NCBI GenBank assembly: GCA_025617375.2 | Contig: JAMYGW020000008.1 | Coordinates: 186,001 to 250,000, forward strand | Length of the DNA: 64,000 bases | Direction of reading: 5' to 3' | From: Acarospora socialis | Lineage: Eukaryota > Ascomycota > Lecanoromycetes > Acarosporales > Acarosporaceae | The notes under the pieces: generated by a model | What the model was told of the DNA's origin: nothing | Database searches by the model: none | The model's input: only the letters and a program-made list of their open reading frames with translations | Shown here: positions 9,363 to 64,000 of the stretch, piece by piece | How the letters are laid out: each line of letters starts with the position of its first letter | Numbering within the stretch: position 1 is the first letter of the stretch | Translations under genes and position numbers: made by a program

Positions 9363-9812
9363 TGTTGAATTACATTGACAAATACATTATAATGATAAAG
9401 TATATGATCAATATATTGTCAATATACAATAATATGTTATTTACTATCTTTAGTAACAGAAGTTTCTAGAATTTTCTAGAAGTTTTTATAAGACTATATG
9501 ACATCATAATAATGTTATTAATTATTAATTATATTATTAAAAATTATAAAATGTTCTAAAATGCTTATTAATCAATTACAATTTATAATTAAACAGAATC
9601 TTCTAAAAACAAGTCTTGTCTATTGTTTAAACACAGTTATGTTCTGTTTTTTGTAGGTAAGTCTGTGAACTTCAACAATAATAAATACTATATTTGTATG
9701 CTTGACAGCAATACTATTGCTTATATAATTATCTTTATATATTTAACTAGTTAGCAGTACTTATAGACACTGTTGTACAGTGTATAAAGTTATAGTATTC
9801 AGTTATTAAACT
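9363..9812 (+). repeat. Ty1/copia LTR, upstream copy (3' end missing)
   Basis: Begins TGTTGAAT and aligns along about 450 bp with the LTR that follows it (shared blocks include GTATATGATCAATATATT, TTAGTAACAGAA, AAACAGAATCTTCTA and GACAGCAATA). It lacks the last 45 bp or so of the downstream copy, which begins where this one stops. Likely a leftover LTR into which a related element inserted, or a tandem duplication. Old: the two copies differ at many sites. Confidence 0.65.
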
Positions 9813-10681
9813 TGTTGAAATATATTGATAAATACATCATACTATTTGAGTATATGATCAATATATTATCAATATACAATAATCTGTCATTTGCTATTTT
9901 TAGTAACAGAAACTTCTACAAGATTCTAGAAGTTTTTATGAAATTTTATGACATCATAATGATGTCATTAATTACTAATCATAATACTAGAAGATTCTAG
10001 AATATTCTAGATTGCTTACTAATCAGTTTGATTTATAATCAAACAGAATCTTCTAGAAATAAGTCTTGTTTATTTAAACACAGCTATGTTCTGCTTTTTG
10101 TATGTAACCTGAATTATAACAACAACTACTACTATTATAATTATATGCTAGACAGCAATATCATTGCTTATATAATCAATTTTATATTGATTAGTCAGCT
10201 ATATATTATAAGTACTGTTGCACAGTACAAAGTTGTTCTTATCAGCTAAAACTTGTACTTATCACTTGTTATATATATACACATATATATATATATTCAA
10301 CAGGTTATGAGCCCGGATTTGCGCTAATCATTATATATAATATAGTGATATAGTGCAAATTGATTATATAATCAATACTAGTTGTTGGGAGTAGCTAGCT
10401 TGAAAATAAGTAAGGCTAGTAAAAGTAACAACTGTATTATCAAATTATATAATCAAAGTAACTGCTATAAATATAGCAGAAATGACTGATAAATACTCTA
10501 TATCAAGCAGTATATCAATTGATAAACTGCAAGATTCATCAAATTATAATCTATGATGCACTAAAGTAAAAATGCTGTTAATAAGAGAGTCTGTTTGGTC
10601 AACTATTAGTGATTCAAACAATACTAGCTTAAATACACAAGAAAAGCTAGATAAAGCACTCTCTACACTATTATTATCACA
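9813..10681 (+). mobile_element. Broken 5' end of a Ty1/copia element: LTR, primer-binding site and start of gag
   Basis: The LTR at 9813-10302 begins TGTTGAAA and ends TTCAACA. It is followed at once by GGTTATGAGCCC (10303-10314), complementary to the anticodon arm of initiator methionine tRNA, the half-tRNA primer used by copia-type elements. From about 10483 the sequence resembles the N-terminus of copia Gag. The element is cut off at about 10681 by LINE A, and no pol, protease or 3' LTR follows here. A broken fossil. Confidence 0.7.
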
Positions 10682-11514
10682 TTACACTAAACCACAAAAA
10701 ATAGAGAAAACACCTTCTATAAAGCATGAAAACAAAGTGGGACTCACATTTAAAGACAAATGTGACTTGTTTCTTGAAGCTATGTTTCCAAAACCACCTC
10801 AAACAAGCCCAGTTGAGCTAGAATGTGATAATAGCTCAACAAAACCATGATTTTCAGTTATTTCTAAGGAAATAAAACAAGCTATTATGACTTCATCAAC
10901 AAAGAAAGCATCTGGGCCAGATGGATTGTCTTTTTTGATAATTCAACATGCATATCAAGCTATATCTGAGTTATTTCACACTGTTTATTCAGTTTTAATA
11001 AATCAAGGCCATCATCCAGTATGCTGACATCAAGAAACTGGTGCAATTCTGAGAAAAGAAGACAAAGCAGACTATTCAATACCCAAAGCATATAGACCAA
11101 TCACTCTACTAAATTGCTTGGGCAAAATATCTGAAAAGATAATGACAACAAGACTTTTCTATTGGGCTGAAACCACAGACTTGCTATATCATGAGCAAAT
11201 GGGTGGTAGAAAGCAAAGATCAGCTGTGGATGCAGCTATGTGTTTAACACATGACATTCAACAAGCAATCAACAACAACAAAGTCTTGACAGCTTTATTC
11301 TTGAATGTTAAGGGTGCATTTAACTATGTGTCTTTAAATCAACTGCTAAAAGTCATGAAAAGACTACATTTACCACAAACTGTACTAAAATAGGTGCAAT
11401 GCTTTCTTACAAATAGAACAATTGCTCTAGCTTTTGATGGTGAAAAAAATCACTCACAAAGTGTCAATTCTGGAATTCCACAAGGATCATCTATATTATC
11501 AATGCTATTTTTGA
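10682..11514 (+). mobile_element. LINE A (Tad1-type), left part: 5'-truncated reverse-transcriptase region
   Basis: Aligns with ORF2 of intact LINE C from C position 18907 onward (linker and reverse transcriptase up to the GIPQGS region) and then stops inside the RT at the target site of the B-C insertion; the remainder continues at 21858. The match begins abruptly next to copia gag, so A is 5'-truncated, as is usual for LINEs. Compared with C it carries GG-to-GA changes, including TGA at 11024 where C has a Trp codon and TAG at 11391-11393, the latter also present in D and E. No frameshift was seen between these stops. Decayed and non-functional. Confidence 0.85.
11501..11514. repeat. Target-site duplication of the B-C insertion, left copy
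   Basis: AATGCTATTTTTGA at 11501-11514 recurs at 21858-21871, where LINE A resumes. The first three bases could belong to the AAAT tail, so 11 bp are certain. It shows that everything between entered LINE A as one event. Confidence 0.85.
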
Positions 11515-12835
11515 GACAGAACCAAAAAACCACAGAACCACAACTAAAGCAGCTATCAAAATTCTGAATAGTGCAAATTCTTTGTCTCATTCACTTCTAT
11601 AAACCCTCAAAACAGCTTATCTTCATCATCAATACTGGTGGTGGGGTACCTCAATTATCATTCAGTGAAAATTTTTCGCGTACCTCCAGCCAAAACTCAA
11701 AACAACATCTCAGACATCAACATCGCCACAATCAACGCATCTTTGAAAATTCTGAATCAACAGTTTTCTTCACCTTGATCTCTTCTAAAATTCATACTAT
11801 TACTGCTTTTTGATATCTTTACTGCTCACAAAGTTGTTGGACTGTTTAGTTGTATCCCTTAGTATCTAGTTTTTGAAGTTCGCAAATTTTCACTTAATTT
11901 TTCTAGCTTGCTTGACAGAGTTTCTGCGCACCAAGCATCACCAGATACCTCAACTAAGCCTCACTCACACCAAAACACCAAAAACACCAAAACAACCAAG
12001 AAAACACCAAAAACACCACTTTTACGCCAACTACACAGCAATTCCAGCCTATACACACCAAGCCACATCAATTCACGCATTATACAACATACCTACATAG
12101 CTCCACCATCAAAACAAGCTATTTTATCAACAAAATCGACTACTTTTCAGCTATTTTCGCCCAAAAACCAGCGTTTCAGGTCAAATTTTTAAGCGTTACA
12201 GGCTGAATTACACCAAATTGCTCAATTCCAGCAACTGCACGCAGTTTCCGCAAAAACTAGCCGCAAAATAGCCATTTCTTGACGGATTTAGCTGGAATTT
12301 GAGCATTTCTTCTGTCAATTGATTAGCGTTTTGCATGCAGAAAGAACCTACCAGTGAAGACATACCCTACACTAGAAGCATCTCACAAAGACCTAGTGAA
12401 GGGTATAAGCAGGTAGCTATTTTCTAGCCCTACCTGCTGGTAAAAGCTCAGACTGGCAAACAACGTCGTCTGAGTAGTTGGGATATAAATACGAGGCTCC
12501 ACGTGGAAATCTTGCCCTAGACGCATCTGCCCCAAGACCTAGTGGTTGAGTGACTTATAGTATAGTCTTGCTTATAGTAGAGCTGGTAAAAGCCTATTGT
12601 AGAGTTTATCTACTCTAGGTGAATTGGGATATTAAGCAACATCTGGATTAGGCAATTGGGTACAGCCTATTCTAGATGAAATAAGGATCCAAAGCTTCTA
12701 TAATCTAGAACCTCAGGAAAATCTAGTTTTTACCTTTAAAAACTAGATAATTACTGCTAGACATAGACCTTCTGGACCTGGATTTGGATAGGATTTTGGA
12801 TTTGGACAGGATGGACCCCAAAAACACCTCATATC

Positions 12836-14425
12836 ATGACTTTTGCACTGGATTCTAGCAACTTCATGCAAGATTTCAACCTAGAAAACCCAAAAACACC
12901 TACAAAACAACAAAAATCACCAAAAACAGCACTTCCACAACTCTTTATGAGTTCACCAGACCTGTTGGGATCACAAATCACCATGAAACCTTCTCAAAAG
13001 ACTATTCTAAAGTCTAAAAAGAGAAGAGCCATTGCCAGTCCAGTGCTAGAAGCTATTTCTTCTGATGAAGAATCAAATCAGCATGAAACTCATCATGCAA
13101 ACTGCACAAACCTACACCCAAAAAGTCAAAATGGTGACAAACTACTTCAACAAGCCAGAAACTACCTCAAGCAAGCTATTCAGCAATTCACAAACCCCAT
13201 AGTTCAACAAGAACTAGAAACTAGCATCAAGACACTGGATCAAGCAAGACAAAATGCAAATCTAGACTCACTCAAACAGTCAGATGAAGCATTTCATCAG
13301 AAACTAGATGTTCAACAACAACTAGACAGCTTCAAAGATGAAGTCAACATCAAACTAGACAAAATTCTTCACACAATGTCTAAAACAAAGTCAGAAACCA
13401 CAGAGAAACCAGCATTTGTCTTTCAGACAAACAAAACAAACCCTATCAACTTTGTACAGACAAACAAAACCAGCTTTGGACAGCCAACATCAACAAAAAC
13501 AGTGAAATCAGCAACATATGCATCAATTGCAAGCAGCAAAGATCAAAATGCTCAAAACTCATGGACAACTGTTCAAAAAAAAGCACCAAAGTCAAAAGTA
13601 GTGGATAAACCCATTACTTTCAGAGAAAGACGTCTAGTTATAAAGTCAAAAACACCCACAACTACTATCAATGCCATAGACATGCGCAACAAAATCAACA
13701 ACACACTTAAAACAGCAAAAATAGACAATTTGCTGGTTTCCACAGTTGCTATTTCACAATCCAAAGCTAGTATAGTGCTCACAACCAGTGAAGGCACAGC
13801 AGAAGACTTGCTAAAACATCAACAAATCTGGAATTCATCATCTGAATTCATAGAAATCAAAAAGGATGAAAAGTGGTACAAAATAGTAGCACATGGAATT
13901 CCCACAGCTATTTTCAACAGCAAAGAAGACATGCAACTAGTCAAAGATGAAGTAGAAATCTTCAACAAAGATATCAAACTAGCTATTTTACCACGCTGGC
14001 TTACTTCAGAAGAAGCCAGACAGGAAAAACAGCATGCATCTATTGTTTTGACAGTCAAATCAGAACAAGAAGCTCAAAAAGCACTCAGAAACAGACTGAT
14101 AATTGCTGGAACATCAGTTAGAACTGCAGTCTACAACACTTGCAAACCAACAGATCAATGCAGAAAGTGTCAAAAGTTTGGACATACTCAAAAAGTATGC
14201 AAAAATCAAGACACATGTCAATTCTGTGCGGGAAACCACAATACTAGAGAACATGGCTGTTTCCTTTGTCCCACACAGTCAAAAGGAACCACTTGTGCAC
14301 ATATAGTCTATAAATGCAGCAATTGTGGTGAGAAACATCAAGCAAATAGTGCAGAATGCAGTGTTTTCAAAGCACTACAGCCTATTTCTTCAACAGCAGA
14401 TCCACTATCTATGAAAATGTCATGA
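12836..14425 (+). CDS. LINE B ORF1 (nucleic-acid-binding Gag-like protein, zinc knuckles)
   Basis: Open for 529 aa and differing from ORF1 of LINE C at one residue seen by eye (Ser in IFNSKED instead of Gly). The N-terminal half is polar, Gln/Asn/Lys-rich and unstructured-looking, with FQTNKTNPINF and FVQTNKTSFGQ repeats. The middle resembles an RNA-binding fold, and the C-terminus has CCHC knuckles beginning CRKCQKFGHTQKVC. In related non-LTR elements ORF1 binds element RNA to form the transposition particle. Its stop overlaps the ORF2 start as ATGA (14422-14425). The protein could still be made, but this copy cannot transpose on its own because ORF2 is truncated. Confidence 0.85.
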   Translation: MTFALDSSNFMQDFNLENPKTPTKQQKSPKTALPQLFMSSPDLLGSQITMKPSQKTILKSKKRRAIASPVLEAISSDEESNQHETHHANCTNLHPKSQNGDKLLQQARNYLKQAIQQFTNPIVQQELETSIKTLDQARQNANLDSLKQSDEAFHQKLDVQQQLDSFKDEVNIKLDKILHTMSKTKSETTEKPAFVFQTNKTNPINFVQTNKTSFGQPTSTKTVKSATYASIASSKDQNAQNSWTTVQKKAPKSKVVDKPITFRERRLVIKSKTPTTTINAIDMRNKINNTLKTAKIDNLLVSTVAISQSKASIVLTTSEGTAEDLLKHQQIWNSSSEFIEIKKDEKWYKIVAHGIPTAIFNSKEDMQLVKDEVEIFNKDIKLAILPRWLTSEEARQEKQHASIVLTVKSEQEAQKALRNRLIIAGTSVRTAVYNTCKPTDQCRKCQKFGHTQKVCKNQDTCQFCAGNHNTREHGCFLCPTQSKGTTCAHIVYKCSNCGEKHQANSAECSVFKALQPISSTADPLSMKMS

Positions 14426-14826
14426 ATAACACAACAAATTCATCACAAATCACCATTCTACAACACAACTGCGCAAGATCTATGAATGTCATGTACTCAT
14501 GTCTGAATTCAGCTACAAAAACTGCAGACATAGTTCTTCTTCAAGAACCATGAGTTGCAAGAGACAACAAAACCACTATTTCACATTCATCTTTTACTAG
14601 TTTGATACCCACATCTAATCTAGATATTAGACCTAGAACTATGGCATTTGTGTCTAAAACTAAACAAGATTTAGTGTGTATACCAAGACCTGACTTGTCA
14701 AAAGACTCAGATTTGCAAATACTCAGTATTTCAGCAAATGGAATTTCTAGTATACTGTTACTTAACATATACAATGAAAAGTCACAGCAAATCAACAATG
14801 ATCAATGGACCATAGACAGATGTTTA
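14422..14826 (+). pseudogene. LINE B ORF2 fragment (start of endonuclease domain)
   Basis: First 135 codons of ORF2, matching MNNTTNSSQITILQHNC of LINE C. It has a TGA at 14551-14553 where C has TGG (the W of QEPW), a GG-to-GA change, and then ends at the junction with the filler. Non-functional. Confidence 0.85.
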
Positions 14827-14842: not shown

Positions 14843-16160
14843 AGAACCAAAAAACCACAGAACCACAACTAAAGCAGCTATCAAAATTCTGAATAGTGCA
14901 AATTCTTTGTCTCATTCACTTCTATAAACCCTCAAAACAGCTTATCTTCATCATCAATACTGGTGGTGGGGTACCTCAATTATCATTCAGTGAAAATTTT
15001 TCGCGTACCTCCAGCCAAAACTCAAAACAACATCTCAGACATCAACATCGCCACAATCAACGCATCTTTGAAAATTCTGAATCAACAGTTTTCTTCACCT
15101 TGATCTCTTCTAAAATTCATACTATTACTGCTTTTTGATATCTTTACTGCTCACAAAGTTGTTGGACTGTTTAGTTGTACCCCTTAGTATCTAGTTTTTG
15201 AAGTTCGCAAATTTTCGCTTAATTTTTCTAGCTTGCTTGACAGAGTTTCTGCGCACCAAGCATCACCAGATACCTCAACTAAGCCTCACTCACACCAAAA
15301 CACCAAAAACACCAAAACAACCAAGAAAACACCAAAAACACCACTTTTACGCCAACTACACAGCAATTCCAGCCTATACACACCAAGCCACATCAATTCA
15401 CGCATTATACAACATACCTACATAGCTCCACCATCAAAACAAGCTATTTTATCAACAAAATCGACTACTTTTCAGCTATTTTCGCCCAAAAACCAGCGTT
15501 TCAGGTCAAATTTTTAAGCGTTACAGGCTGAATTACACCAAATTGCTCAATTCCAGCAACTGCACGCAGTTTCCGCAAAAACTAGCCGCAAAATAGCCAT
15601 TTCTTGACGGATTTAGCTGGAATTTGAGCATTTCTTCTGTCAATTGATTAGCGTTTTGCATGCAGAAAGAACCTACCAGTGAAGACATACCCTACACTAG
15701 AAGCATCTCACAAAGACCTAGTGAAGGGTATAAGCAGGTAGCTATTTTCTAGCCCTACCTGCTGATAAAAGCTCAGACTGGCAAACAACGTCGTCTGAGT
15801 AGTTGGGATATAAATACGAGGCTCCACGTGGAAATCTTGCCCTAGACGCATCTGCCCCAAGACCTAGTGGTTGAGTGACTTATAGTATAGTCTTGCTTAT
15901 AGTAGAGCTGGTAAAAGCCTATTGTAGAGTTTATCTACTCTAGGTGAATTGGGATATTAAGCAACATCTGGATTAGGCAATTGGGTACAGCCTATTCTAG
16001 ATGAAATAAGGATCCAAAGCTTCTATAATCTAGAACCTCAGGAAAATCTAGTTTTTACCTTTAAAAACTAGATAATTACTGCTAGACATAGACCTTCTGG
16101 ACCTGGATTTGGATAGGATTTTGGATTTGGACAGGACGGACCCCAAAAACACCTCATATC
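14843..16160 (+). promoter_or_regulatory. LINE C 5'UTR with presumed internal promoter
   Basis: About 1.3 kb upstream of ORF1, conserved in B, D, E and (in part) F. It contains an A/C-rich run of ACCAAAACACC units (15290-15350). A more GC-containing block with repeated ACCTAGTG/CTAGTG motifs follows (15700-15880), then TCTAG-rich sequence up to ORF1. LINEs carry their promoter inside the 5' end because they must be transcribed from base one; the location is inferred, not seen. Small open frames in this block are shared by all copies but show no recognisable product. Confidence 0.45.
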
Positions 16161-17750
16161 ATGACTTTTGCACTGGATTCTAGCAACTTCATGCAAGATT
16201 TCAACCTAGAAAACCCAAAAACACCTACAAAACAACAAAAATCACCAAAAACAGCACTTCCACAACTCTTTATGAGTTCACCAGACCTGTTGGGATCACA
16301 AATCACCATGAAACCTTCTCAAAAGACTATTCTAAAGTCTAAAAAGAGAAGAGCCATTGCCAGTCCAGTGCTAGAAGCTATTTCTTCTGATGAAGAATCA
16401 AATCAGCATGAAACTCATCATGCAAACTGCACAAACCTACACCCAAAAAGTCAAAATGGTGACAAACTACTTCAACAAGCCAGAAACTACCTCAAGCAAG
16501 CTATTCAGCAATTCACAAACCCCATAGTTCAACAAGAACTAGAAACTAGCATCAAGACACTGGATCAAGCAAGACAAAATGCAAATCTAGACTCACTCAA
16601 ACAGTCAGATGAAGCATTTCATCAGAAACTAGATGTTCAACAACAACTAGACAGCTTCAAAGATGAAGTCAACATCAAACTAGACAAAATTCTTCACACA
16701 ATGTCTAAAACAAAGTCAGAAACCACAGAGAAACCAGCATTTGTCTTTCAGACAAACAAAACAAACCCTATCAACTTTGTACAGACAAACAAAACCAGCT
16801 TTGGACAGCCAACATCAACAAAAACAGTGAAATCAGCAACATATGCATCAATTGCAAGCAGCAAAGATCAAAATGCTCAAAACTCATGGACAACTGTTCA
16901 AAAAAAAGCACCAAAGTCAAAAGTAGTGGATAAACCCATTACTTTCAGAGAAAGACGTCTAGTTATAAAGTCAAAAACACCCACAACTACTATCAATGCC
17001 ATAGACATGCGCAACAAAATCAACAACACACTTAAAACAGCAAAAATAGACAATTTGCTGGTTTCCACAGTTGCTATTTCACAATCCAAAGCTAGTATAG
17101 TGCTCACAACCAGTGAAGGCACAGCAGAAGACTTGCTAAAACATCAACAAATCTGGAATTCATCATCTGAATTCATAGAAATCAAAAAGGATGAAAAGTG
17201 GTACAAAATAGTAGCACATGGAATTCCCACAGCTATTTTCAACGGCAAAGAAGACATGCAACTAGTCAAAGATGAAGTAGAAATCTTCAACAAAGATATC
17301 AAACTAGCTATTTTACCACGCTGGCTTACTTCAGAAGAAGCCAGACAGGAAAAACAGCATGCATCTATTGTTTTGACAGTCAAATCAGAACAAGAAGCTC
17401 AAAAAGCACTCAGAAACAGACTGATAATTGCTGGAACATCAGTTAGAACTGCAGTCTACAACACTTGCAAACCAACAGATCAATGCAGAAAGTGTCAAAA
17501 GTTTGGACATACTCAAAAAGTATGCAAAAATCAAGACACATGTCAATTCTGTGCGGGAAACCACAATACTAGAGAACATGGCTGTTTCCTTTGTCCCACA
17601 CAGTCAAAAGGAACCACTTGTGCACATATAGTCTATAAATGCAGCAATTGTGGTGAGAAACATCAAGCAAATAGTGCAGAATGCAGTGTTTTCAAAGCAC
17701 TACAGCCTATTTCTTCAACAGCAGATCCACTATCTATGAAAATGTCATGA
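16161..17750 (+). CDS. LINE C ORF1 protein (Gag-like, CCHC zinc knuckles)
   Basis: 529 aa. Order: Gln/Lys/Asn-rich N-terminus, possible coiled segment around residues 95-180 (LLQQARNYLKQAIQQF, then QQQLDSFKDEVNIKLDKIL), a low-complexity stretch with two NKTxPI/NKTSF repeats, a folded region from about 260 to 430, and C-terminal knuckles. The first knuckle is C442-X2-C-X4-H-X4-C455, then CQFCAGNH and CSNCGEKHQANSAEC. Presumed RNA-binding and chaperone protein of the transposition particle. The start at 16161 is the first Met of the open frame, kept in all copies. The TGA stop overlaps ORF2's ATG by four bases (ATGA), which suggests that ORF2 is translated by stop-and-restart. Confidence 0.9.
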   Translation: MTFALDSSNFMQDFNLENPKTPTKQQKSPKTALPQLFMSSPDLLGSQITMKPSQKTILKSKKRRAIASPVLEAISSDEESNQHETHHANCTNLHPKSQNGDKLLQQARNYLKQAIQQFTNPIVQQELETSIKTLDQARQNANLDSLKQSDEAFHQKLDVQQQLDSFKDEVNIKLDKILHTMSKTKSETTEKPAFVFQTNKTNPINFVQTNKTSFGQPTSTKTVKSATYASIASSKDQNAQNSWTTVQKKAPKSKVVDKPITFRERRLVIKSKTPTTTINAIDMRNKINNTLKTAKIDNLLVSTVAISQSKASIVLTTSEGTAEDLLKHQQIWNSSSEFIEIKKDEKWYKIVAHGIPTAIFNGKEDMQLVKDEVEIFNKDIKLAILPRWLTSEEARQEKQHASIVLTVKSEQEAQKALRNRLIIAGTSVRTAVYNTCKPTDQCRKCQKFGHTQKVCKNQDTCQFCAGNHNTREHGCFLCPTQSKGTTCAHIVYKCSNCGEKHQANSAECSVFKALQPISSTADPLSMKMS

Positions 17751-20700
17751 ATAACACAACAAATTCATCACAAATCACCATTCTACAACACAACTGCGCA
17801 AGATCTATGAATGTCATGTACTCATGTCTGAATTCAGCTACAAAAACTGCAGACATAGTTCTTCTTCAAGAACCATGGGTTGCAAGAGACAACAAAACCA
17901 CTATTTCACATTCATCTTTTACTAGTTTGATACCCACATCTAATCTAGATATTAGACCTAGAACTATGGCATTTGTGTCTAAAACTAAACAAGATTTAGT
18001 GTGTATACCAAGACCTGACTTGTCAAAAGACTCAGATTTGCAAATACTCAGTATTTCAGCAAATGGAATTTCTAGTATACTGTTACTTAACATATACAAT
18101 GAAAAGTCACAGCAAATCAACAATGATCAATGGACCATAGACAGATGTTTAACAGCAATTCAACTACCACAAAGAGCTACTATCTGTGGGGATTTTAATG
18201 CACATCATGCATGGTGGAATTCATCAATAGAAAACTCTATAAGAGCTACTTCTTTGATAAACTGGCTGAAAATTCACAACTGTGAGCTATTAAATACACC
18301 AGACATAAACACCTATACACATCACTCAGGAAATGCCACATCAGTGATTGATTTGACTTTTGCAACATTCTTACTTTGCAATTTCATCAGAAATTGGCAA
18401 GTAAATCAAGACATGGAGTCTGGATCAGACCATGAAGTTATTCAGTTTCAAATAACTGCAAATGAGTCTGAATGGGTTGAAAGTCCACTGAGTGCATCAT
18501 ACAATATAGACAAAGCAGACTGGGTTAAATTTGCAGAAACTCTGCAAATAAACTCAGTACAAACCAGTGTTCAAATTCAAAGCTTAATGCAACATCTATC
18601 AGATCAAAATCTAGAAGAAATGGCTATTTCTCTCAGAAATCTGATAGCAAATGCAGCAGATCAGCATATACCAAAGAGAAAACCTTGTTCAAAAGCCAAA
18701 GTATGGTGGTCTGAATCATTATCAGTACTTAGAACTGAAATGAGTGGTTTTAGAAGATACTGGAAACATCACAAATCACAAGAAAACTGGAATCAATTCA
18801 GAAATGCAAGAAATAGATACTTTCACGCAATTCAGAAAGCCAAACATACCTCATGGACTACTTTTCTGCAAGGTGCAGCTGGAAAAGATGTTTTCACAGC
18901 ATATCATTACACTAAACCACGAAAAATAGAGAAAACACCTCCTATAAAGCATGAAAACAAAGTAGGACTCACATTTAAAGACAAATGTGACTTGTTTCTT
19001 GAAGCTATGTTTCCAAAACCACCTCAAACAAGTTCAGTTGAGCTAGAATGTGATAATAGTCTCACAAAACCATGGTTTTCAGTCATTTCTAAGGAAATAA
19101 AACAAGCTATTATGACTTCATCAACAAAAAAAGCACCTGGGCCAGATGGATTGTCCTTTTTGATAATTCAACATGCATATCAAGCTATATCTGAGTTATT
19201 TCACACTGTTTATTCAGTTTTAATAAATCAAGGTTATCATCCAGTATGCTGGCGTCAAGGAACTGGTGCAATTCTAAGAAAAGAAGGCAAAGCAGACTAT
19301 TCAATACCCAAAGCATATAGGCCAATCACTCTACTAAATTGCTTGGGCAAAATATCTGAAAAGATAATGGCAACAAGACTTTCCTATTGGGCTGAAACCA
19401 CAAACTTGCTATATCATGAGCAAATGGGCAGTAGAAAGCAAAGATCAGCTGTGGATGCAGCTATGTGTTTAACACATGACATTCAACAAGCAATCAACAA
19501 CAACAAAGTCTTGACAGCTTTATTCTTGGATGTTAAGGGTGCATTTAACTATGTGTCTTTAAATCAACTGCTAAAAGTCATGAAAAGACTACATTTACCA
19601 CAAACTGTACTAAAATGGGTGCAATGCTTTCTTACAAATAGAACAATTGCTCTAGCTTTTGATGGTGAAAAAAATCACCCACAAAGTGTCAATTCTGGAA
19701 TTCCACAAGGATCACCTATATCACCAATGCTATTTTTGATCTATATGCGATTTCTATTCACAAAAATCAACAATAAACACACTCAACTAAAGCTACCAAG
19801 CTATATTGATGATGTGGCTATTATTGTGAAAGGAAAAACAGCTGCAGACAACAGCAAAACACTAGAATCAGTCACAAAAACTGCATTTCAATGGGCTGAA
19901 GAAAATGCAGTTATATTTGATGACAGCAAGTCAGAACTCATCCATTTTCAGAAAGGAAATCAAGCTATATCAACAGTAAAACTACCAAATAACACTGTTA
20001 TACATCCTTCTAAAGTTGTACGCTGGCTAGGTGTTTGGTTTGACACTAAAATGTCTTTTAAGACACATGTGCAAAAGAAAATAGCTTCTGCAACTAGAAC
20101 ATTGCATTTACTGCATAGACTGATGAATTCTGAATGGGGTTTATCAACATCAGCTGGAAAACAGCTGTACACAGCCTGCATCACATCTATAAGTGACTAT
20201 GGAAGCCCAGTATGGTGGAAACAACAAAAGAATTTTGAAAAGCTGTTTCAAAAACTTCAAAATTCAGCAACTAGAAAAATTCTAGGTGCATTTAGGTCTT
20301 CACCATCAGCTGCTATGGAGCTAGAATCAGCTATATTACCACTCAGATTTAGACTTGATCAAAAAACAGAGCTATATGCTTTAAGAATAGCTACTTTGTC
20401 AGAAAATCATCCAATTAGACAAAGAACTCCATACACCTACCCACCAGGACTTGGAACTGGATGTGATATTGATGAAAATCATTATCTTGACTGGAATCAA
20501 CATCCAAACTCTCTCATTAAGAAGAAACACCCAACTCAGTTGATTAAAGTGCTATATAGCATTTGCAAATATCTACCAGAAACACTAAATTTGGAGGTTT
20601 CAACTCAAAATGAGTTATGCTGTGCACCTTGGAGTGTTTCACCAAACATAGACATTCAAATCAGCAAATCTGACAAAAAACTAGCTACTTTGGAACATCT

Positions 20701-21664
20701 AAAGAGACTAGAAACACTTTTCTCTAAGGAAACCAAGTTTAAAAATGCTGTTTTGTACACAGATGGGTCAAAACTAGATGAGAATCTAGGTGCAGGTCTT
20801 TGCTACATGTATAAAGATATTATACATCAACAATCTTGGAATCTAGGAACCACCATGGAAGTCTATGATGCTGAATTGTTTGGAATTTCACAGTCTTTGA
20901 AGTTAAGTCTCAAAGAAATCATGAAATATCAAAGAATCAAAGACATATGGATCTTTTCAGACAATCAAGCAGCTATACAAAGAATTCAAACTACAAACCA
21001 AGGATCTGGACAGCAGCTAGCTATTAAATGTCAAGAAACTCTTCAAAAACTCATAGATTATGAAGTTACACCTCATATTCATTGGGTTCCTGGACATGAG
21101 GACATTAAAGGCAATGAAATAGCAGATGAAGCTGCAAAATCAGGTGCAAAGCAGTCAATTTCACCAGATATTGATAGATTTACATCTATTAGCTATATCA
21201 AACACAAAATCAAGGCCAAAGCACTGGAAAACTGGACCACTCACTGGAAAAAGACAACCCAAGGAAGATACTATGCTCAGTTTGATCAAACACCTAGTTT
21301 TCACATCAAAGAAGATCTGAAAAGTGCAGACAGACTTTCATTTGCTACTTTTACACAAATGAAACTAGGTCATGGCTATTTCAAAGCATATCTGCATAGA
21401 TTACCAGACTATAATAGCAAGAAATGCAATGGTGCATGCAACAAAGATCAAACCCCAGAGCATTTGTTGACAGCCTGTCAATATAACAAAAAGGAGCAAA
21501 CTGAGCTGAAAAATCAGCTCAGAAACATCAATTTGCCATATACAGCAAAGGTGCTGTTTACTACCAAGGAAGGAATCAAAGCTACTTTGCTGTTTTTGAA
21601 GAAAATCAAAGTAGCTACTAGAAAATGGTTATTAGAAGAAGTTGAGGATGAAGATGAGATTTAG
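17747..21664 (+). CDS. LINE C ORF2 polyprotein: endonuclease, reverse transcriptase, RNase H
   Basis: 1305 aa starting MNNTTNSSQITILQHNC. APE-type endonuclease at about residues 10-235 (QHNC, QEPW, GDFNAHH with D149, SDHE with D228-H229) should nick the target. Reverse transcriptase follows at about 430-760 (APGPDGLSF, YRPITLLNCLGK, LFLDVKGAFNYV, GIPQGSPISPMLF and the active site Y686-I-D-D689). RNase H at about 1000-1135 has the acidic set D1006 (YTDGSK), E1043, D1072 (SDNQAA) and D1127, with HWVPGHEDIKGNEIADEAAK. A Cys/His motif (C1227, C1231, H1240, C1245) lies near the end, as in other RNase H-bearing LINEs. All domains are complete and without stops. An upstream in-frame Met at 17681 lies inside ORF1, and the ATGA overlap favours 17747. 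Confidence 0.92.
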   Translation: MNNTTNSSQITILQHNCARSMNVMYSCLNSATKTADIVLLQEPWVARDNKTTISHSSFTSLIPTSNLDIRPRTMAFVSKTKQDLVCIPRPDLSKDSDLQILSISANGISSILLLNIYNEKSQQINNDQWTIDRCLTAIQLPQRATICGDFNAHHAWWNSSIENSIRATSLINWLKIHNCELLNTPDINTYTHHSGNATSVIDLTFATFLLCNFIRNWQVNQDMESGSDHEVIQFQITANESEWVESPLSASYNIDKADWVKFAETLQINSVQTSVQIQSLMQHLSDQNLEEMAISLRNLIANAADQHIPKRKPCSKAKVWWSESLSVLRTEMSGFRRYWKHHKSQENWNQFRNARNRYFHAIQKAKHTSWTTFLQGAAGKDVFTAYHYTKPRKIEKTPPIKHENKVGLTFKDKCDLFLEAMFPKPPQTSSVELECDNSLTKPWFSVISKEIKQAIMTSSTKKAPGPDGLSFLIIQHAYQAISELFHTVYSVLINQGYHPVCWRQGTGAILRKEGKADYSIPKAYRPITLLNCLGKISEKIMATRLSYWAETTNLLYHEQMGSRKQRSAVDAAMCLTHDIQQAINNNKVLTALFLDVKGAFNYVSLNQLLKVMKRLHLPQTVLKWVQCFLTNRTIALAFDGEKNHPQSVNSGIPQGSPISPMLFLIYMRFLFTKINNKHTQLKLPSYIDDVAIIVKGKTAADNSKTLESVTKTAFQWAEENAVIFDDSKSELIHFQKGNQAISTVKLPNNTVIHPSKVVRWLGVWFDTKMSFKTHVQKKIASATRTLHLLHRLMNSEWGLSTSAGKQLYTACITSISDYGSPVWWKQQKNFEKLFQKLQNSATRKILGAFRSSPSAAMELESAILPLRFRLDQKTELYALRIATLSENHPIRQRTPYTYPPGLGTGCDIDENHYLDWNQHPNSLIKKKHPTQLIKVLYSICKYLPETLNLEVSTQNELCCAPWSVSPNIDIQISKSDKKLATLEHLKRLETLFSKETKFKNAVLYTDGSKLDENLGAGLCYMYKDIIHQQSWNLGTTMEVYDAELFGISQSLKLSLKEIMKYQRIKDIWIFSDNQAAIQRIQTTNQGSGQQLAIKCQETLQKLIDYEVTPHIHWVPGHEDIKGNEIADEAAKSGAKQSISPDIDRFTSISYIKHKIKAKALENWTTHWKKTTQGRYYAQFDQTPSFHIKEDLKSADRLSFATFTQMKLGHGYFKAYLHRLPDYNSKKCNGACNKDQTPEHLLTACQYNKKEQTELKNQLRNINLPYTAKVLFTTKEGIKATLLFLKKIKVATRKWLLEEVEDEDEI

Positions 21665-23975: not shown

Positions 23976-24062
<87 letters not shown>

Positions 24063-24231: not shown

Positions 24232-24310
24232 TATCACAAGTCATCATAGTGCATGTTTGCTGATATAGACTATAAAAGAAAGAATAAATAAATAAATAAA
24301 TAAATAAGTG
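24230..24310 (+). mobile_element. SINE S1, 3' part with AAAT tail
   Basis: CTCTATCACAAGTCATCATAG through GACTATAAAAGAAAGAATAAATAAATAA, identical in design to the last 75 bp of S2 and S3. The middle of about 250 bp is missing. Head and tail overlap by a few bases (CTC) at the junction. Confidence 0.8.
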
Positions 24311-52300: not shown

Positions 52301-55300
52301 TCACCATTCTACAACACAACTGCACAAGATCTATGAATGTCATGTACTCATGTCTGAATTCAGCTACAAAAACTGCAGACATAGTTCTTCTTCAAGAACC
52401 ATGGGTTGCAAGAGACAACAAAACCACTATTTCACATCCATCTTTTACTAGTTTGATACCCACATCTAATCTAGATATTAGACCTAGAACTATGGCATTT
52501 GTGTCTAAAACTAAACAAGATTTAGTGTGTATACCAAGACCTGACTTGTCAAAAGACTCAGATTTGCAAATACTCAGTATTTCAGCAAATGGAATTTCTA
52601 GTATACTGTTACTTAACATATACAATGAAAAGTCACAGCAAATCAACAATGATCAATGGACCATAGACAGATGTTTAACAGCAATTCAACTACCACAAAG
52701 AGCTATTATCTGTGGGAATTTTAATGCACATCATGCATGGTGAAATTCATCAATAGAAAACTCTATAAGAGCTACTTCTTTGATAAACTGGCTGAAAATT
52801 CACAACTGTGAGCTATTAAATACACCAGACATAAACACCTATACACATCACTCAGGAAATTCCACATCAGTGATTGATTTGACTTTTGCAACATCCTTAC
52901 TTTGCAATTTCATCAGAAATTGACAAGTAAATCAAGACATGGAGTCTGAATCAGACCATGAAGTTATTCAGTTTCAAATAACTGCAAATGAGTCTGAATG
53001 GGTTGAAAGTCCACTGAGTGCATCATACAATATAGACAAAGCAGACTGGGTTAAATTTGCAGAAACTCTGCAAATAAACTCAGTACAAATCAGTGTTCAA
53101 ATTCAAAGCTTAATGCAACATCTATCAGATCAAAATCTAGAAGAAATGGCTATTTCTCTCAGAAATCTGATAGCAAATGCAGCAGATCAGCATATACCAA
53201 AGAGAAAACCTTGTTCAAAAGCCAAAGTATGATGGTCTGAATCATTATCAGTACTTAGAACTGAAATGAGTGGTTTTAGAAGATACTGAAAACATCACAA
53301 ATCACAAGAAAACTGAAATCAATTCAGAAATGCAAGAAATAGATACTTTCATGCAATTCAGAAAGCCAAACATACCTCATGAACTACTTTTCTGCAAGGT
53401 GCAGCTGAAAAAGATGTTTTTACAGCATATCATTACACTAAACCACGAAAAATAGAGAAAACACCTCCTATAAAGCATGAAAACAAAGTGAGACTCACAT
53501 TTAAAGACAAATGTGACTTGTTTCTTGAAGCTATGTTTCCAAAACCACCTCAAACAAGCCCAGTTGAGCTAGAATGTGATAATAGTCTCACAAAACCATG
53601 GTTTTCAGTCATTTCTAAGAAAATAAAACAAGCTATTATGACTTCATCAACAAAGAAAGCACCTGGGCCAGATGGATTGTCCTTTTTGATAATTCAACAT
53701 GCATATCAAGCTATATCTGAGTTATTTCACACTGTTTACTCAGTTTTAATAAATCAAGGCCATCATCCAGTATGCTGGCGTCAAGGAACTGGTGCAATTC
53801 TGAGAAAAGAAGGCAAAGCAGACTATTCAATACCCAAAGCATATAGACCAATCACTCTACTAAATTGCTTGGGCAAAATATCTGAAAAGATAATGGCAAC
53901 AAGACTTTTCTATTGGGCTGAAACCACAGACTTGCTATATCATGAGCAAATGGGTGGTAGAAAGCAAAGATCAGCTGTGGATGCAGCTATGTGTTTAACA
54001 CATGACATTCAACAAGCAATCAACAACAACAAAGTCTTGACAGCTTTATTCTTGGATGTTAAGGGTGCATTTAACTATGTGTCTTTAAATCAACTGCTAA
54101 AAGTCATGAAAAGACTACATTTACCACAAACTGTACTAAAATAGGTGCAATGCTTTCTTACAAATAGAACAATTGCTCTAGCTTTTGATGGTGAAAAAAA
54201 TCACTCACAAAGTGTCAATTCTGGAATTCCACAAGGATCATCTATATTATCAATGCTATTTTTGATCTATATGCGATTTCTATTCACAAAAATCAACAAT
54301 AAACACACTCAACTAAAGCTACCGAGCTATATTGATGATGTGGCTATTATTGTGGAAGGAAAATCAGCTGCAGACAACAGCAAAACACTAGAATCAGTCA
54401 CAAAAACTGCATTTCAGTGAGCTGAAGAAAATGCAGTTATATTTGATGACAGCAAGTCAGAACTCATTCATTTTCAGAAAGGAAATCAAGCTATATCAAC
54501 AGTAAAACTACCAAATAACACTGTTATACATTTTTCTAAAGTTGTATGCTGACTAGGTGTTTGGTTTGACACTAAAATGTCTTTTAAGACACATGTGCAA
54601 AAAAAAATAGCTTCTGCAACTAGAACATTGCATTTACTGCATAGACTGATGAATTCTGAATGGAGTTTATCAACATCAACTGAAAAACAGCTGTACACAG
54701 TCTGCATCACATCTATAAGTGACTATGAAAGTCCAGTATGGTGAAAACAACAAAAGAATTTTGAAAAGCTGTTTCAAAAACTTCAAAATTCAGCAACTAG
54801 AAAAATTCTAGGTGCATTTAGGTCTTCACCATCAGCTGCTATGGAGCTAGAATCAGCTATATTACCACCTAGATTTAGACTTGATCAAAAAACAGAGCTA
54901 TATGCTTTAAGAATAGCTACTTTGTCAGAAAATCATTCAATTAGACAAAGAACTTCATACACCTACCCACCAGGACTTGAAACTGGATGTGATATTGATG
55001 AAAATCATTATCTTGACTGAAATCAACATCCAAACTCTCTCATTAAGAAGAAACACCCAACTCAGTTGATTAAAGTGCTATATAGCATTTGCAAATATCT
55101 ACCAAAAACACTAAATTTGGAGATTTCAACTCAAAATGAGTTATGCTGTGCACCTTGGAGTGTTTCACCAAACATAGACATTCAAATCAGCAAATCTGAC
55201 AAGAAACTAGCTACTTTGAAACATCTAAAGAAATTAGAAACACTTGTTTCTAAAGAAACTAGAGCAAGAAATGCTATTCTATACACAGATGGGTCAAAAC

Positions 55301-56386
55301 TAGATGAAAATCTAGGTGCAGGTCTTTGCTACATGTATAAAGACATTATACATCAACAATCTTGAAATCTAGGAACTATCATGGAAGTCTATGATGCTGA
55401 ATTGTTTGGAATCTCACAGTCTTTGAAGTTAAGTCTCAAAGAAATCATGAAACATCAAAGAATCAAAGATGTTTGAATCTTTTCAGACAATCAAGCAGCT
55501 ATACAAAGAATTCAAACCACAAATCAAGGATCTGGACAGCATCTAGCTATTAAATGTCAAGAAACTCTTGAAAAACTCATAGAATATGAAGTTACATCTC
55601 ATATTCATTGGGTTCCTGAACATGAGAACATTAAAGACAATGAAATAGCAGATGAAGCTGCAAAATCAGGTGCAAAGCAGTCAATTTCATCAGATATTGA
55701 TAGATTTACATCTATTAGCTATATCAAACACAAAATCAAGGCCAAAGCACTGGAAAACTGAACCACCCACTGAAAAAAGACAACTCAAGAAAGATACTAT
55801 GCTCAGTTTGATCAAACACCTAGTTTTCACATCAAAGAAGATCTGAAAAGTGCAGACAGACTTTCATTTGCTACTTTTACACAAATGAAACTAGGTCATG
55901 GCTATTTCAAAGCATATCTGCATAGATTACCAGACTATAATAGCAAGAAATGCAATGGTGCATGCAACAAAGATCAAACCCCAGAGCATTTGTTGACAGT
56001 CTGTCAATATAACAAAAAGAAGCAAACTAAGCTGAAAAATCAGCTCAGAAACATCAATTTGCCATATACAGCAAAGGTGCTGTTTACTACCAAGGAAGGA
56101 ATCAAAGCTACTTTGCTGTTTTTGAAGAAAACCAAAGTAGCTACTAGAAAATGGTTATTAGAAGAAGTTGAGAATGAAGATGAGATTTAGAAAAGAAGAA
56201 AGATATTGATTAACAATCAGCATCAGATTGACTGAACAGAAGTGATCAAAAAGCATTCAGATTGATTATTCACATGTACAAGATTTTGAGTTTTGTTTTG
56301 TGTCTACATCTTTCACTATATGTCTATTAACTGCCATAGCTTTTATAGCTGCATGCATAGAATGAAGAATAAATAAATAAATAAAT
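49359..56386 (+). mobile_element. LINE E: full-length but inactivated Tad1-type copy with 12-bp target duplications
   Basis: Flanked by AATCAATTTCTG at 49347-49358 and 56387-56398. The canonical 5'UTR starts at about 49377, after 18 extra bases (49359-49376). ORF1 is 50687-52276, ORF2 52273-56190, joined by ATGA; the tail is at 56366-56386. Every break seen keeps the reading frame: stops at former Trp codons, such as 51413, 51680 and 51848 in ORF1, and 52741, 52921, 53230, 54142 (TAG), 54418, 54550, 54742, 55018, 55363 and 55474 in ORF2. ORF2 still shows APGPDGLS, YIDD and parts of RNase H. Near-identical to D including most mutations. It is a clean insertion into gypsy G3. Confidence 0.92.
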
Positions 56387-59300
56387 AATCAATTTCTGCA
56401 GTATGATCTGTGTCAATATTGATGCTGTTGTAATCTTCTTGAATGAAATGAACATTGTGTATTTTGTCAATCTATTCACTATAATCAATATACTGTTGAA
56501 TTTTTTTTCTCATGTTGAATCTTTTGATGATGATAACTTCATTATGAAGTTTATAGTAACAGATTATCACAGTCTTGTCAGTGATTTAATTTTTGTTATT
56601 TCATTATATCACTTATCTCAATTAGATTGATTTCTTTGACATAATTCACACTTAACAATCATATAAGTAATTTAATTTCTAAAATCATCAATATTGCATC
56701 TTTTTTGTATCTGATCTTCAGTACATTTAACTTTAAAATGTTTATAAATTTTTGTTTCATGATATTCTCTAATGAGTTTGTTGTTCATTAAGAAAATATA
56801 TTTTATCTTGTATGTTGCTGCTAAGTCTTTTGTGAGAATTTTGTTGTTATCTTTACTTAAAATTTCAGTATAAACTTACTTCACTTCTTTATGATCAGAT
56901 TATCTACTTAAAGCATTTGCTTCATTATTCTCATTATTTTTTTTGTAATGAATTTGAAATTCAAAGTTGACTAACAACTCTGTTCAGTAAATCTGTTGTT
57001 GATTTAACTGCTTTGTCATTGTAAAATTTTTCAAATTCTTGTGATCAGTGAAGATCTGAATTGACTTTTTCATTTTTGCAAGATAAGATCTTCAGTCTTA
57101 CAGTGCTTTCACTATTGCAAGTAGTTTTCTATCATAAATTTCATATTTTTTCTTGAATCTGAATAACTTTCTAAATCAATAAATCACAGATTTCTGTTGT
57201 CTGTTCTTGATCTGATATAAGTATGTGTCAATTGTAAAATTTCAAGCATTGATTTTCAGTACTTTTTCATATGCTGTTTAAAATATCATTAAATGAGTTA
57301 TTTCACTGAGACTTTCTTTCAGTACATTGAACACTTTCTGCTGTTCTCAATTTCAGTGTTATTTTTCTTTTTTCTGTATCAGTTACATAAGAAGTTCAGC
57401 TATTCTAGAGTAACTGAGTACAAACTTTTAATAATAATTTGTTAATTTTAAAAAAACTTGTACTTTCTTAATCTGTATTAATGTTGATCAGTCTCTGACT
57501 GCTGCAGTCTTTTCTGAATTTTTCTCAATATAATCAGATTGAATAACATATTTAAGAAATCTGACTTTTTAAGTTTCAAATTTGCTCTTTAATTTTTTCA
57601 CATACAAAGTTTTCTTCTTAAGTTTCACTAGTATCTTGTGCACATGTTCTCAGTGCATTTCAAGATCTTCTGAATATATCAGAATGTCATTAAGATATGT
57701 GATTATAAAATTATTGAGATATTCTCTAATTATATCATTAATTAATCTTTAAAAAATAACAGAAACATTCTTGAATCTGAATTACATAACAGTATATTTA
57801 TAATGTTTATATTTTGTTTAGAACATTGTTTTTCATTTTTTTTCAGCTTTTATTCATATATGATAATAAATCTTCTTAAGATTTAAGCTTGTGAATCACT
57901 TAACTTTGTCTAATTAATCTTGCAACTCTTTTATTAATAATAGAAAATAACTGTTCTGATGAGTTATCTCATTGAGTTATTTATAATTAACACACAATCA
58001 TTTCTTGTCATTCTTCTTTGATACAAACAGAATTAGATATTTTGCTGATGACTTTGATGATTTTATGAATTCTTTTTTCAGATTTTTGTCAAGATAAGTT
58101 CTTACTTTTTTGAGTTAATTCTCACTCATAAAATACAGTGATATTCACTTTGACTGTTTTTCATTCTGAAGTGATATCTCATAATTTTATAATTAATACT
58201 CTGATAAACTCATTTCTGATTGTTCAGAAATCTCATATGTGTTTTTTACTGTGTATATTTCTTTAGTAACTCAGTTAATCTGTGAATTACAATTACACAG
58301 TTAAGACATCTCTAGCATCATATCATATTTTATTGACTTTGTAATGTCAAACATTATTTCTTGTGAGTTTTCTTGAATTGTAGTCTCAACACAAACTTCA
58401 TTTTTGATTTACTTGATGATGTTATTTGTTATGTAAAGATTGATTAAATAGTGTGCTCATCTTGTTCTTAACTTTAATCTCAAGATTATACTGCAATGAA
58501 TAACATTGTTATCAATCTCAGAATTCATCAATGTCTGAATTGAGTGATCATCAATGTTCATGATAATTTATATTCTATGATCATTATTTCTTCATTGAGA
58601 CATCACTAGCTTCTTAGTCTCTAGTTTCATCAAGAAAGCTTGCAGTTTTTTGACTTTACTGTCTCTTTTGCTTCTCTTCATAGTACTCTGAATCACTCAG
58701 AATTTTTTTTTATCATTAAGTTAATGTAGTCATCACTTTTTTTAAAAATGCATCATTTCAGATACAGATTCATTCAGAACTGATTGTATTCAGTTGCAAT
58801 TGATTTTCAATGACTTTTACTCTTTGCAAGAAGTTTGAAAGTAAATAGATTTTATTGTTTAATCATTGTTTGTTATCACTCATAATGAGTTTTCTTGATA
58901 AACAGACTTTAATTTTGTGTTCATATGACTTTCACACAAGTGTTCTAGATATTGATGTGTTGTGAAGTACTGTTTTCATATTTTTAAATAATTTGTTCAG
59001 CTCTCTGCACACTTTTCTTTTTATTTTCACTCATTGATTTTTAATCTTCTGAAGTCTCTGATTCAGTTCTTTGACTTAAATTTCTTTTTTAAGTTTTTTT
59101 TTCTGTTGCTTGAGCATCTCTCTATGATTTTCTCAGCTTTAGTTCTTAAGATACTTGTACTGTATCTTGAGTTTCATGTTAACTTTTTAATCATCAATGT
59201 TCTCTGAGTTCACATTCAAATTCAGAGCATATCAGATGTTATTACTGTAATTTTCTTCTATCTGAGTTTCTTGATCATTCATTTCTTTGATGTTGACATT

Positions 59301-59894: not shown

Positions 59895-59906
59895 TCTGTG
59901 AGTATC

Positions 59907-63100: not shown

Positions 63101-63935
63101 CAGAGTACTTCATCTACAATATGAATAATGCTGATATTTTTTACAGTTCTTTTTCTGCACTACACTATTTACTTTTAGATTTCTCAATACTGACTTGACA
63201 TCTCTTCAGCTTCACTCTTCAGCATCTTTTTCTCTTTGTAGATTTTTTTCAGTTACTTCTCAGCATTCTTAATTTTACACAGCATACATTGTTACTCTAA
63301 CTCTAACATCACTTTGCTGATGCAATGCTGCTGTGATAGTGAGTTCAAGCAATTTATATAAACAAACAACTTTGTCAAGAAAATGATCTTAGATTTTTGA
63401 AGATTTCAGAATGACATTCTTGAAGATCAAATACATTATAAAAAATTATATAAAAAACTCAGTAACTTCAGAACAATACTTAAGAAGATATTTTCTGATC
63501 TAAATTCAAGAAGATACTAAAATTCAGCTCTAGCTACAAGAGAATTAACACTTCAGAATAATAGATTTTCTTTTTATTACTATCACAACAACATTCTATA
63601 TGACTCAAGATTACAATAATAACATCAATCTTCATTTTGACAGTCTCTACAACTTTAAATTTACTTGTTGCTGCAAATCTCTTGTCACTGCAAGTTCTCA
63701 CAATCATAAATTTCTTGCTGTCACAAATCTTACATGTCACTGTCTGTCACAATAAAGCTCTGTTGTCATAAATCTCTTGTTGTTGCAAGTCTCAGTGAAC
63801 ATCATCACAATAAAGCACAAAAAGAATGACAACATCATAAAATGAGTCAGAATACTCAGAGTTATCACAATATCATTATTGTTCTTGTGAACTCAGTGAG
63901 TGTTTAATTTTCATCATGTGTATACTGTTAAATCA
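60161..63935. other. Decayed AT-rich DNA, family not recognised
   Basis: Several short plus-strand open frames (60173-60430, 60727-60918, 61058-61252, 61329-61598) lie one after another and read like remnants of one longer coding region, with a CQSC cysteine pair near 60380 and Lys-rich segments. I recognise no family, and no RT, integrase or transposase motif. CC, GG and CG are nearly absent, so this is an old repeat rather than a host gene. Around 63680-63830 CACAA/TTGTTG-rich, LTR-like sequence occurs. Confidence 0.35.
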
Positions 63936-64000
63936 GAGTGGTTGTGTGATATAGTGGACAGTTTATCATGCTGGTAGTCTTTTTAATTTAAGTGAAAATT
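63936..64000 (+). mobile_element. SINE S4, 5' end cut by the window edge
   Basis: GAGTGGTTGTGTGATATAGT and on through TTTAATTTAAGTGAAAATT match the first 65 bp of the SINE head. The preceding bases (TATACTGTTAAATCAGAGTG) resemble those before S2 (TATACTGTGTAAACAGAGTG), so the two may share more than the SINE itself. Confidence 0.8.

Follow-up and report, generated by a model that had tools for sequence, protein, structure and literature searches.

The window analysed here is a 64,000-nucleotide stretch of the genome of the ascomycete Acarospora socialis (contig JAMYGW020000008.1; G000:C8:186001-250000), whose assembly comprises 31.1 Mb in 38 contigs. Genes lie at its start and are followed by nested repeats, in which copies of one long interspersed nuclear element (LINE) occur with AT-rich fossils in between. 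These repeats carry the traces of a C to T mutation process similar to the repeat-induced point mutation (RIP) of fungi, and, with a CpS (S = C or G) instead of a CpA rule, it differs from such mutation as described in the literature searched.

Organisation of the window

The gene-bearing stretch (1..9217; all positions are those of the window) has CC and CG at normal levels, 9217 being the last GG before a stretch free of CC, GG and CG. It contains Rft1, identified by Pfam, a frame with an OB-fold which we take to be replication factor A and another frame that is presumably a DEAD-box helicase. The following sequence (9218..10108) lacks CC and CG throughout, has a single GG (9656) and includes a diverged direct repeat (9363-9542 and 9813-9992).

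The first LINE copy, A (10680..14826, forward strand; pieces 10680-11514 and 11518-14826), is followed by copy C (14843..21860, forward), which has two open reading frames (ORFs), ORF1 (16092-17750) and ORF2 (17675-21664), the latter with endonuclease, reverse transcriptase (RT) and RNase H domains. In copy C, 24 of the 35 CpG fall in the first 1.4 kb (14843-16242). A LINE fragment at 21855..23994 (forward) is 99% like copy F and 97% like C. On the reverse strand are found an old fragment, D (26403..27659), and copy E (27662..34671), with broken ORFs; a LINE 5' end, present as a roughly 87% copy at 34679-35192, adjoins E. Copy F (49366..56388, forward), also with broken ORFs, is 99% like E. 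The boundaries of the broken ORFs are the same in the two copies, as are 65 CpC sites changed by C>T, and their likeness ends at the LINE ends, so it seems that a mutated copy was itself copied later, by trans-mobilisation or gene conversion.

Runs free of CC, GG and CG occupy 24229..26621 (2,393 bases), 36487..40846 (4,360 bases), 41130..44513 (3,384 bases) and 44639..49380 (4,742 bases), with further runs at 56335-59588, 59892-62307 and 62308-63940. Six fossil pieces were searched against Pfam and four of them gave no match. A weak trace of a copia-type RT lies at 40130-40282 (RVT_2, E 0.0092, below the Pfam cut-off), where an equally weak match to a geminivirus model is probably due to chance, and a sub-threshold match to a Tf2-1-like SH3 domain lies at 48765-48998 (reverse strand).

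Sequence context of mutations in the LINE copies

An initial annotation of the window, made by reading the sequence alone, had described the differences of the decayed LINEs from copy C as mostly GG to GA or CC to TC. Counts of C>T changes by 3' neighbour in copies aligned to C agree with this description. In copy E the changed sites amounted to 87/374 CpC, 16/70 CpG, 22/1176 CpA and 23/937 CpT, and in copy F to 81/375, 18/70, 21/1177 and 20/938, respectively; that is, CpC was changed at 23 and 22% of its sites and CpG at 23 and 26%, compared with about 2% for CpA and for CpT. Fragment D, aligned to a part of C that has no CpG, was mutated at 45/58 CpC, 22/198 CpA and 26/171 CpT. The longer piece of copy A (11518-14826) differs from C in 6 of 3,309 columns, all of them transitions and five of them C>T in A, with changes at 2/189 CpC, 3/60 CpG, 0/555 CpA and 0/446 CpT. 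Some of the changes had been read as CG to TG or CA; per site, the rate at CpG is about that at CpC and the rule is therefore CpS.

The same contexts were counted by parsimony on a tree of a 1,201-base RT stretch from 32 copies, namely 29 fetched copies and copies C, E and F of the window. The copies were drawn from at least 40 LINE matches, 8 of the 40 lying outside the analysis and one copy (L060) being left out, and changes made ambiguous by the root were excluded. C>T changes per branch-sites were 145/3,682 for CpC, 6/336 for CpG, 35/12,612 for CpA and 30/9,640 for CpT, or 39, 18 and, for both CpA and CpT, about 3 per 1000 branch-sites. CpC is thus in excess about 14-fold over CpA and 13-fold over CpT; CpA is not the main target and the changes are uneven over CpN, as the initial annotation had maintained. 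The low count of CpG changes is explained by these LINE frames containing hardly any CpG. For the first 23 copies the corresponding figures were 138/2,534, 6/228, 35/8,954 and 29/6,854.

In the tree, the 5' neighbour mattered less (ACC 0.041, GCC 0.043, TCC 0.074, CCC 0.083). A TpCpG target of the basidiomycete type was also considered and rejected, CpC being a major target and TCG (2/11 in E and 3/11 in F, compared to C) not being favoured over ACG (10/25 in each). Both strands are mutated. Raw counts, taken from 37 GG and 27 CC sites, tilt to GG>GA in several copies (10 vs 2 in F, 10 vs 1 in copy L034), and a strand bias at p<0.05 was found in one of the seven branches having at least six changes. 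On either strand, the base that mutates is the C followed by C or G.

Loss of CC, GG and CG from fossil repeats

The initial annotation had noted that the fossils are almost without CC, GG and CG and rich in CA, CT and GC, and the counts are stronger than that claim. With expected numbers derived from base composition, the observed/expected ratio (O/E) of CC, CG and CA was 0.01, 0.00 and 1.51 in 36400-40800 and 0.01, 0.00 and 1.50 in 44600-47600, vs 0.92, 0.92 and 1.07 in the gene-bearing 1-9100. CC, GG and CG taken together are expected 281 times in 44639-49380, 206 times in 36487-40846, 210 times in 41130-44513, 161 times in 56335-59588 and 159 times in 59892-62307, and are seen in none of these runs, the longest of which has 4,742 bases. 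The GC dinucleotide is retained, with 51-81 seen vs 53-94 expected per run (five window runs of 2.4-4.7 kb).

The genome was sampled at 18 loci of 10 kb, at round-number positions on contigs C1, C2, C3, C4 and C8 picked blind to content, and the sample was cut into 180 tiles of 1 kb. The GC content of the tiles is bimodal: 24 tiles are below 0.32, none lies at 0.32-0.40 and 156 are above 0.40. The 24 AT-rich tiles have 2 CC, 1 GG and 0 CG, where 455, 461 and 442 are expected. One sampled locus has a run of 9,802 bases without CC, GG and CG, compared with longest runs of 40 and 52 bases in two GC-normal comparison loci. Some one-eighth of the genome has been stripped of these dinucleotides, a rough estimate from 24 of 180 tiles, the AT-rich tiles coming from 3 of the 18 loci and the sample covering 5 of the 38 contigs. 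In the other 156 tiles, O/E had a median of 0.93 and a minimum of 0.68 for CC/GG and a median of 0.90 and a minimum of 0.29 for CG, so that depletion of CC and GG is absent from GC-normal tiles, which are not proven to be single-copy non-coding DNA. Two tiles (L021:5001-7000) have ordinary CC and low CG (O/E 0.29 and 0.34), perhaps a CpG-only effect.

AT-rich DNA is generally poor in CC, GG and CG, and a bias of base composition, selection or an artefact of assembly might be invoked for these figures. We consider this hardly credible. The GC dinucleotide, which has the same composition, is not depleted in the AT-rich tiles (497 seen vs 442 expected), by which a composition artefact is rejected for this assembly, and the signal is directional and bound to context in aligned copies from many contigs. 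Deamination of 5-methylcytosine at CpG only is likewise rejected, CC and GG being abolished as well.

Three fossils were checked for copy number and all three are repeats, with 63 matches in the genome for window 44600-46100, 42 for L022:6500-7700 and 13 for L011:5000-6200 (self included in each); the fossil of L015 lay outside this check. Young LINEs with a CC O/E of 0.7-0.8 sit among saturated fossils in the window, which indicates that the state of mutation tracks the element and its age and not the region. The GC content of the fossils does not fall below 25-30%, which is what sparing of CpA and CpT should produce. It had been predicted that such decay would escape the standard RIP indices, and it does: in the 24 AT-rich tiles the mean TpA/ApT is 0.71 and the mean (CpA+TpG)/(ApC+GpT) is 1.61, and the composite index is above 0 in none of them, vs 11 of the 156 others.

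Target avoidance in open LINE reading frames

The target base was also investigated in the open ORFs of the LINE, at third codon positions. C/(C+T) was 3/168 (0.02) before G, 20/154 (0.13) before C, 196/343 (0.57) before A and 73/187 (0.39) before T, and the corresponding values in five host frames were 0.46, 0.45, 0.62 and 0.60. For third-position G in synonymous boxes, G/(G+A) was 1/265 after C, 6/94 after G, 84/387 after A and 68/159 after T in the LINE and 0.41, 0.49, 0.52 and 0.64 in the host frames. The ORFs of copy C retain hardly any synonymous CpG and have been purged of most of their synonymous CpC; the initial annotation had called this copy intact, which is true of its open frames and fails for C as a pristine reference.

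In ORF2, GG across codon boundaries, where the second G is a first codon position, was seen 33 times vs 42 expected, and CC, where the first C is a silent third position, 9 times vs 38 expected; in ORF1 the figures were 8 vs 10 for GG and 11 vs 24 for CC. Targets are thus retained at positions where their mutation should change the encoded protein. Such a pattern is expected if C is mutated in front of C or G and selection on a functional element then acts on the outcome, and it speaks against mutation of the C that follows a C. A rule of the APOBEC3G type, in which C after C is mutated, was rejected by the same third-position test: the value for C after C was 0.31 vs 0.52-0.73 after other bases, a weaker effect than that of a 3' G or C (0.02-0.13).

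Short repeats and ribosomal DNA

At L022, 16 CG lie within 5748-5878 in a GC-normal stretch, and from 5879 onwards 4,123 bases are without CC, GG and CG. This edge was considered as a border to single-copy DNA, which was rejected when a search found short dispersed repeats on the left side. One of them, a GC-normal dispersed repeat of 135 bp (L022:5745-5879), directly adjoins the saturated fossil; relative to the majority base of each column, its copies have C>T at 22/200 CpG, 2/70 CpC, 7/97 CpA and 3/115 CpT. Another repeat, seen over about 180 bp (L022:5539-5718) and possibly part of a longer element, was changed at 23/65 CpC, 39/306 CpT and 11/277 CpA, and 2 of its 11 copies have no CC, GG or CG. 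Beside its CpC signature, CpT is raised above CpA.

Pieces of ribosomal DNA (rDNA; L029 and L030, on contigs C18 and C28, outside the random sample), identified by Rfam as eukaryotic, have kept their targets (CC O/E 1.05, CG O/E 0.82). One match to the small subunit model is long, its 1,831 model positions being spread over 3,095 bases (N stretches counted in), which resembles the effect of intron insertion, and the two rDNA copies show small differences in length.

The separate behaviour of CpG in the 135-bp repeat raises the alternative of two enzymes with separate rules that would sum to CpS, CpG being the target of DNMT5 or DIM-2 and CpC that of RID or DIM-2. CpG is also purged further than CpC from the open LINE ORFs (0.02 vs 0.13), and the private changes of E and F number 10 at CpG and 31 at CpC, from 42-44 CpG vs 295-305 CpC sites. 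We regard this alternative as quite unlikely, given that CpC and CpG are similarly mutated in the same copies (87/374 vs 16/70 in E, 81/375 vs 18/70 in F) and that in each of the 24 fossil tiles the two are almost absent.

Recent activity and tempo

Thirteen copies, C included, lie within 0 to 7 bases of C. Taking the majority base as ancestral, they have 21 variable columns, all of them C/T or G/A: 18 are C>T at CpC, one is at CpT, one at CpA and one is CpG/TpG with ambiguous direction. With the latter column excluded, 18/64 CpC sites vs 2/357 CpA and CpT sites had changed (Fisher, p 3e-14). Separate addition of a further copy (L050, 98.7-99% like C) gave 29 columns: 22 CpC, 2 CpA, 2 CpT, 1 C>G, 1 T>C and 1 A>G. 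Mutation on the LINE copies is therefore recent.

The ratio of CpS to other changes differed over 21 branches (p 5e-5), and the difference was lost without one copy, L048 (p 0.16). This is a diverged LINE copy (C12:148421-149621) with 1 CpS vs 32 other changes on its branch. The uneven ratios resting on a single copy, we do not claim bursts, and a steady build-up of changes towards saturation is consistent with the data.

Gradual accumulation would also be expected if the loss were passive, i.e. if repeats were methylated at CpC and CpG in heterochromatin by DIM-2 and DNMT5 and 5-methylcytosine were slowly deaminated, with no dedicated mutator. A DNMT5-type gene with its SNF2 part in an adjoining frame is present (see below), DNMT5 being described as the class for CpG maintenance in Cryptococcus in the passage concerned of PMC8016269. 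However, the counts in the closest copies (CpC 18/64 vs CpA and CpT 2/357) would then demand methylation that nearly skips CpA and CpT, and the edge at L022, with 16 CG against a free run of 4,123 bases, an equally sharp edge of methylation. Passive loss is, in our opinion, unlikely.

Candidate enzymes

The initial annotation had proposed a search for homologues of RID, DIM-2 and DIM-5. A search with PF00145 found four matches at three C5-methyltransferase loci. The locus at C3:855595 is of DIM-2 type, its best PDB match (E 4.7e-200) being 9bap, listed as a DNA (cytosine-5-)-methyltransferase, which we take to be DIM-2. At C2:1420221-1421136, an exon with SPPCQ and ENT motifs has HaeIII, HhaI and DNMT1 as PDB relatives and on account of these motifs is presumably of RID type; the first match spans one in-frame TGA, just inside an apparent intron start, GTGAGT. 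The third locus, C8:614409, is of DNMT5 type and matches PDB 7r76 (E 2.5e-67), which is listed as DNA repair protein Rad8 and which we assume to be Cryptococcus Dnmt5. A SNF2 match lies 2.5 kb beyond it, in a long open frame that begins 44 bases after the methyltransferase frame, and the two frames probably form one gene. One Pre-SET locus could encode a DIM-5-like protein. Genes of RID, DIM-2 and DNMT5 type are represented in the genome.

C5-methyltransferases show rules set by the 3' neighbour, and deaminases of the AID/APOBEC type read the 5' side. A 3'-neighbour rule therefore suits a C5-methyltransferase better than such a deaminase. Action of a cytidine deaminase on repeat DNA in single-stranded form, or on cDNA, would account for the variable columns of the 13 closest copies being all C/T or G/A and for the raw lean to GG>GA in several copies (10 vs 2 in F, 10 vs 1 in L034). 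It is nevertheless very unlikely, since the rule is set by the 3' neighbour, the C-after-C effect at LINE third positions is weaker and a strand bias was found in one of seven branches only. The search for APOBEC_N gave no match, and as the control gave none either, absence is not established by it. Two loci of uracil-DNA glycosylase type were found.

Discussion

The alignments, the LINE tree and the genome tiles support a RIP-like process with an unusual neighbour preference, as the initial annotation had suggested. We think it rather probable, judging from the sequence pattern and the genes present, that this is an active repeat mutator causing C>T at CpS through a C5-methyltransferase pathway in which recognition has shifted from CpA to CpS. 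Such a mutator would turn C into T in front of C or G on both strands, the changes would build up on LINE copies, and in old repeats the process would have run until nearly all CpC and CpG were gone and CpA and CpT remained. The machinery would most likely consist of a RID- and/or DIM-2-type C5-methyltransferase, possibly with DNMT5 at CpG, and the methylated or enzyme-bound cytosine would be deaminated. A precedent is found in a bacterial C5-methyltransferase that was shifted from CG to mainly CC by deletion of one residue and three substitutions in the recognition domain, as described in the relevant part of PMC10899764; together with the 3' rule this favours a methyltransferase route with altered recognition. 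We infer that the agent is a methyltransferase, and likewise which one it may be (RID or DIM-2), the chemistry, a trigger by duplication or sex and a minimum length below which repeats would be spared.

The term RIP-like marks the limit of the evidence. We do not assign the process to RIP proper, since a preference for CpA was looked for and the preference found was for CpC and CpG, and the wording also reflects that the changes look gradual and that one short dispersed repeat is spared. A more far-reaching version is put forward tentatively, as possible and rather doubtful: an enzyme natively specific for CpS and acting in vegetative and sexual cells would have erased both dinucleotides from about one-eighth of the genome and driven the loss of synonymous target sites from a LINE that is still alive. 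The enzyme may be a RID or DIM-2 with altered specificity or belong to an undescribed pathway.

Several observations weigh against an active mutator of this kind. The 135-bp repeat is spared in 7/7 copies, with 16-25 CC, GG and CG per copy where 22-30 are expected, so being repeated is not sufficient for mutation; a length limit that spares short repeats would fit, and short repeats are known to escape RIP through such a limit. The 5' base matters too, for in E and F compared to C the rate at TCC was 0.38-0.40 vs 0.08-0.12 at ACC. Without L048 the branch ratios are homogeneous, unlike a classical RIP burst, and 14 of the 40 LINE matches listed (C included) are 99-100% like C, so many near-identical copies implying that the defence is slow or leaky. 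Finally, Zymoseptoria tritici has dim2, rid and dnmt5 and its change is directed to CA (PMC8016269, in the part concerned), which means that a set of the same three gene types does not predict CpS. The same part of that source states that no activity data exist for RID and Masc1.

Like RIP in Neurospora and other Pezizomycotina, the process acts on both strands of repeats, converts C:G to T:A, leaves AT-rich fossils and is found in a genome with RID- and DIM-2-type genes. RIP in Neurospora is a burst before meiosis triggered by duplication; the accumulation observed here, in contrast, looks gradual. CpA is given as the usual target of RIP in the passages concerned of PMC2621366 and PMC12543289, whereas in this genome it is CpC and CpG that are abolished, with CpA and CpT spared. 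A 2025 survey of 1,239 fungal genomes reports, in its relevant passage, a preference for CpA as common to RIP-like defences (PMC12543289). RIP-like mutation biased to CpG is described, in the passages concerned, for the MATE elements of Aspergillus nidulans and for Microbotryum (PMC2621366), the Microbotryum target being TpCpG. CpG is targeted in repeats in these systems and in Rhizoctonia solani AG8, as it is here, but in the present genome CpC is mutated about as strongly and mutation does not depend on a 5' T.

The closest indication that the pattern may not be wholly new comes from R. solani AG8, in which, according to Table 2 of PMC4014442, C/T single-nucleotide polymorphisms (SNPs) are most closely spaced at CpC (every 214 bp genome-wide, and every 370 bp at CpG), with no correction for dinucleotide abundance in that passage; the closely spaced CpC SNPs occur in genes as well as in repeats (PMC4014442, same part). 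Z. tritici, which has dim2, rid and dnmt5, resembles the present case in that its repeats mutate, and there without sex. The tempo here is nearer to its Dim2-dependent mitotic C>T mutation than to RIP in Neurospora, although that mutation is CA-specific, with CC methylation minor (about 3 and 8% vs 10 and 22% at CA) in the part of PMC8016269 concerned. The engineered M.MpeI variant, which methylates CCA/CCC, shares the C5-methyltransferase fold and the CC specificity, but it is a laboratory bacterial enzyme and the relevant part of PMC10899764 draws no link to mutation in fungi. In the lichen Cladonia rangiformis, a similar two-compartment genome with sharp edges is described, its repeats peaking at about 16% GC (PMC12542154, in the passage concerned) vs 25-30% in the fossils here. 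No report of repeat mutation exclusive to CpC and CpG in a fungus was found in the literature searched, subscription papers and preprints lying outside the search.

The neighbour rule of RIP has been treated as nearly fixed at CpA, and the indices used in surveys are built on CpA. The present fungus carries methyltransferases of the usual types and a repeat mutator that follows a different rule, almost to saturation, and it has a LINE with open frames that displays avoidance of the targets. Comparison of the two naturally occurring specificities, CpA and CpS, could help to identify the enzyme and the residues by which the target is determined, and the finding suggests that surveys of fungal genomes could be repeated with all four CpN contexts.

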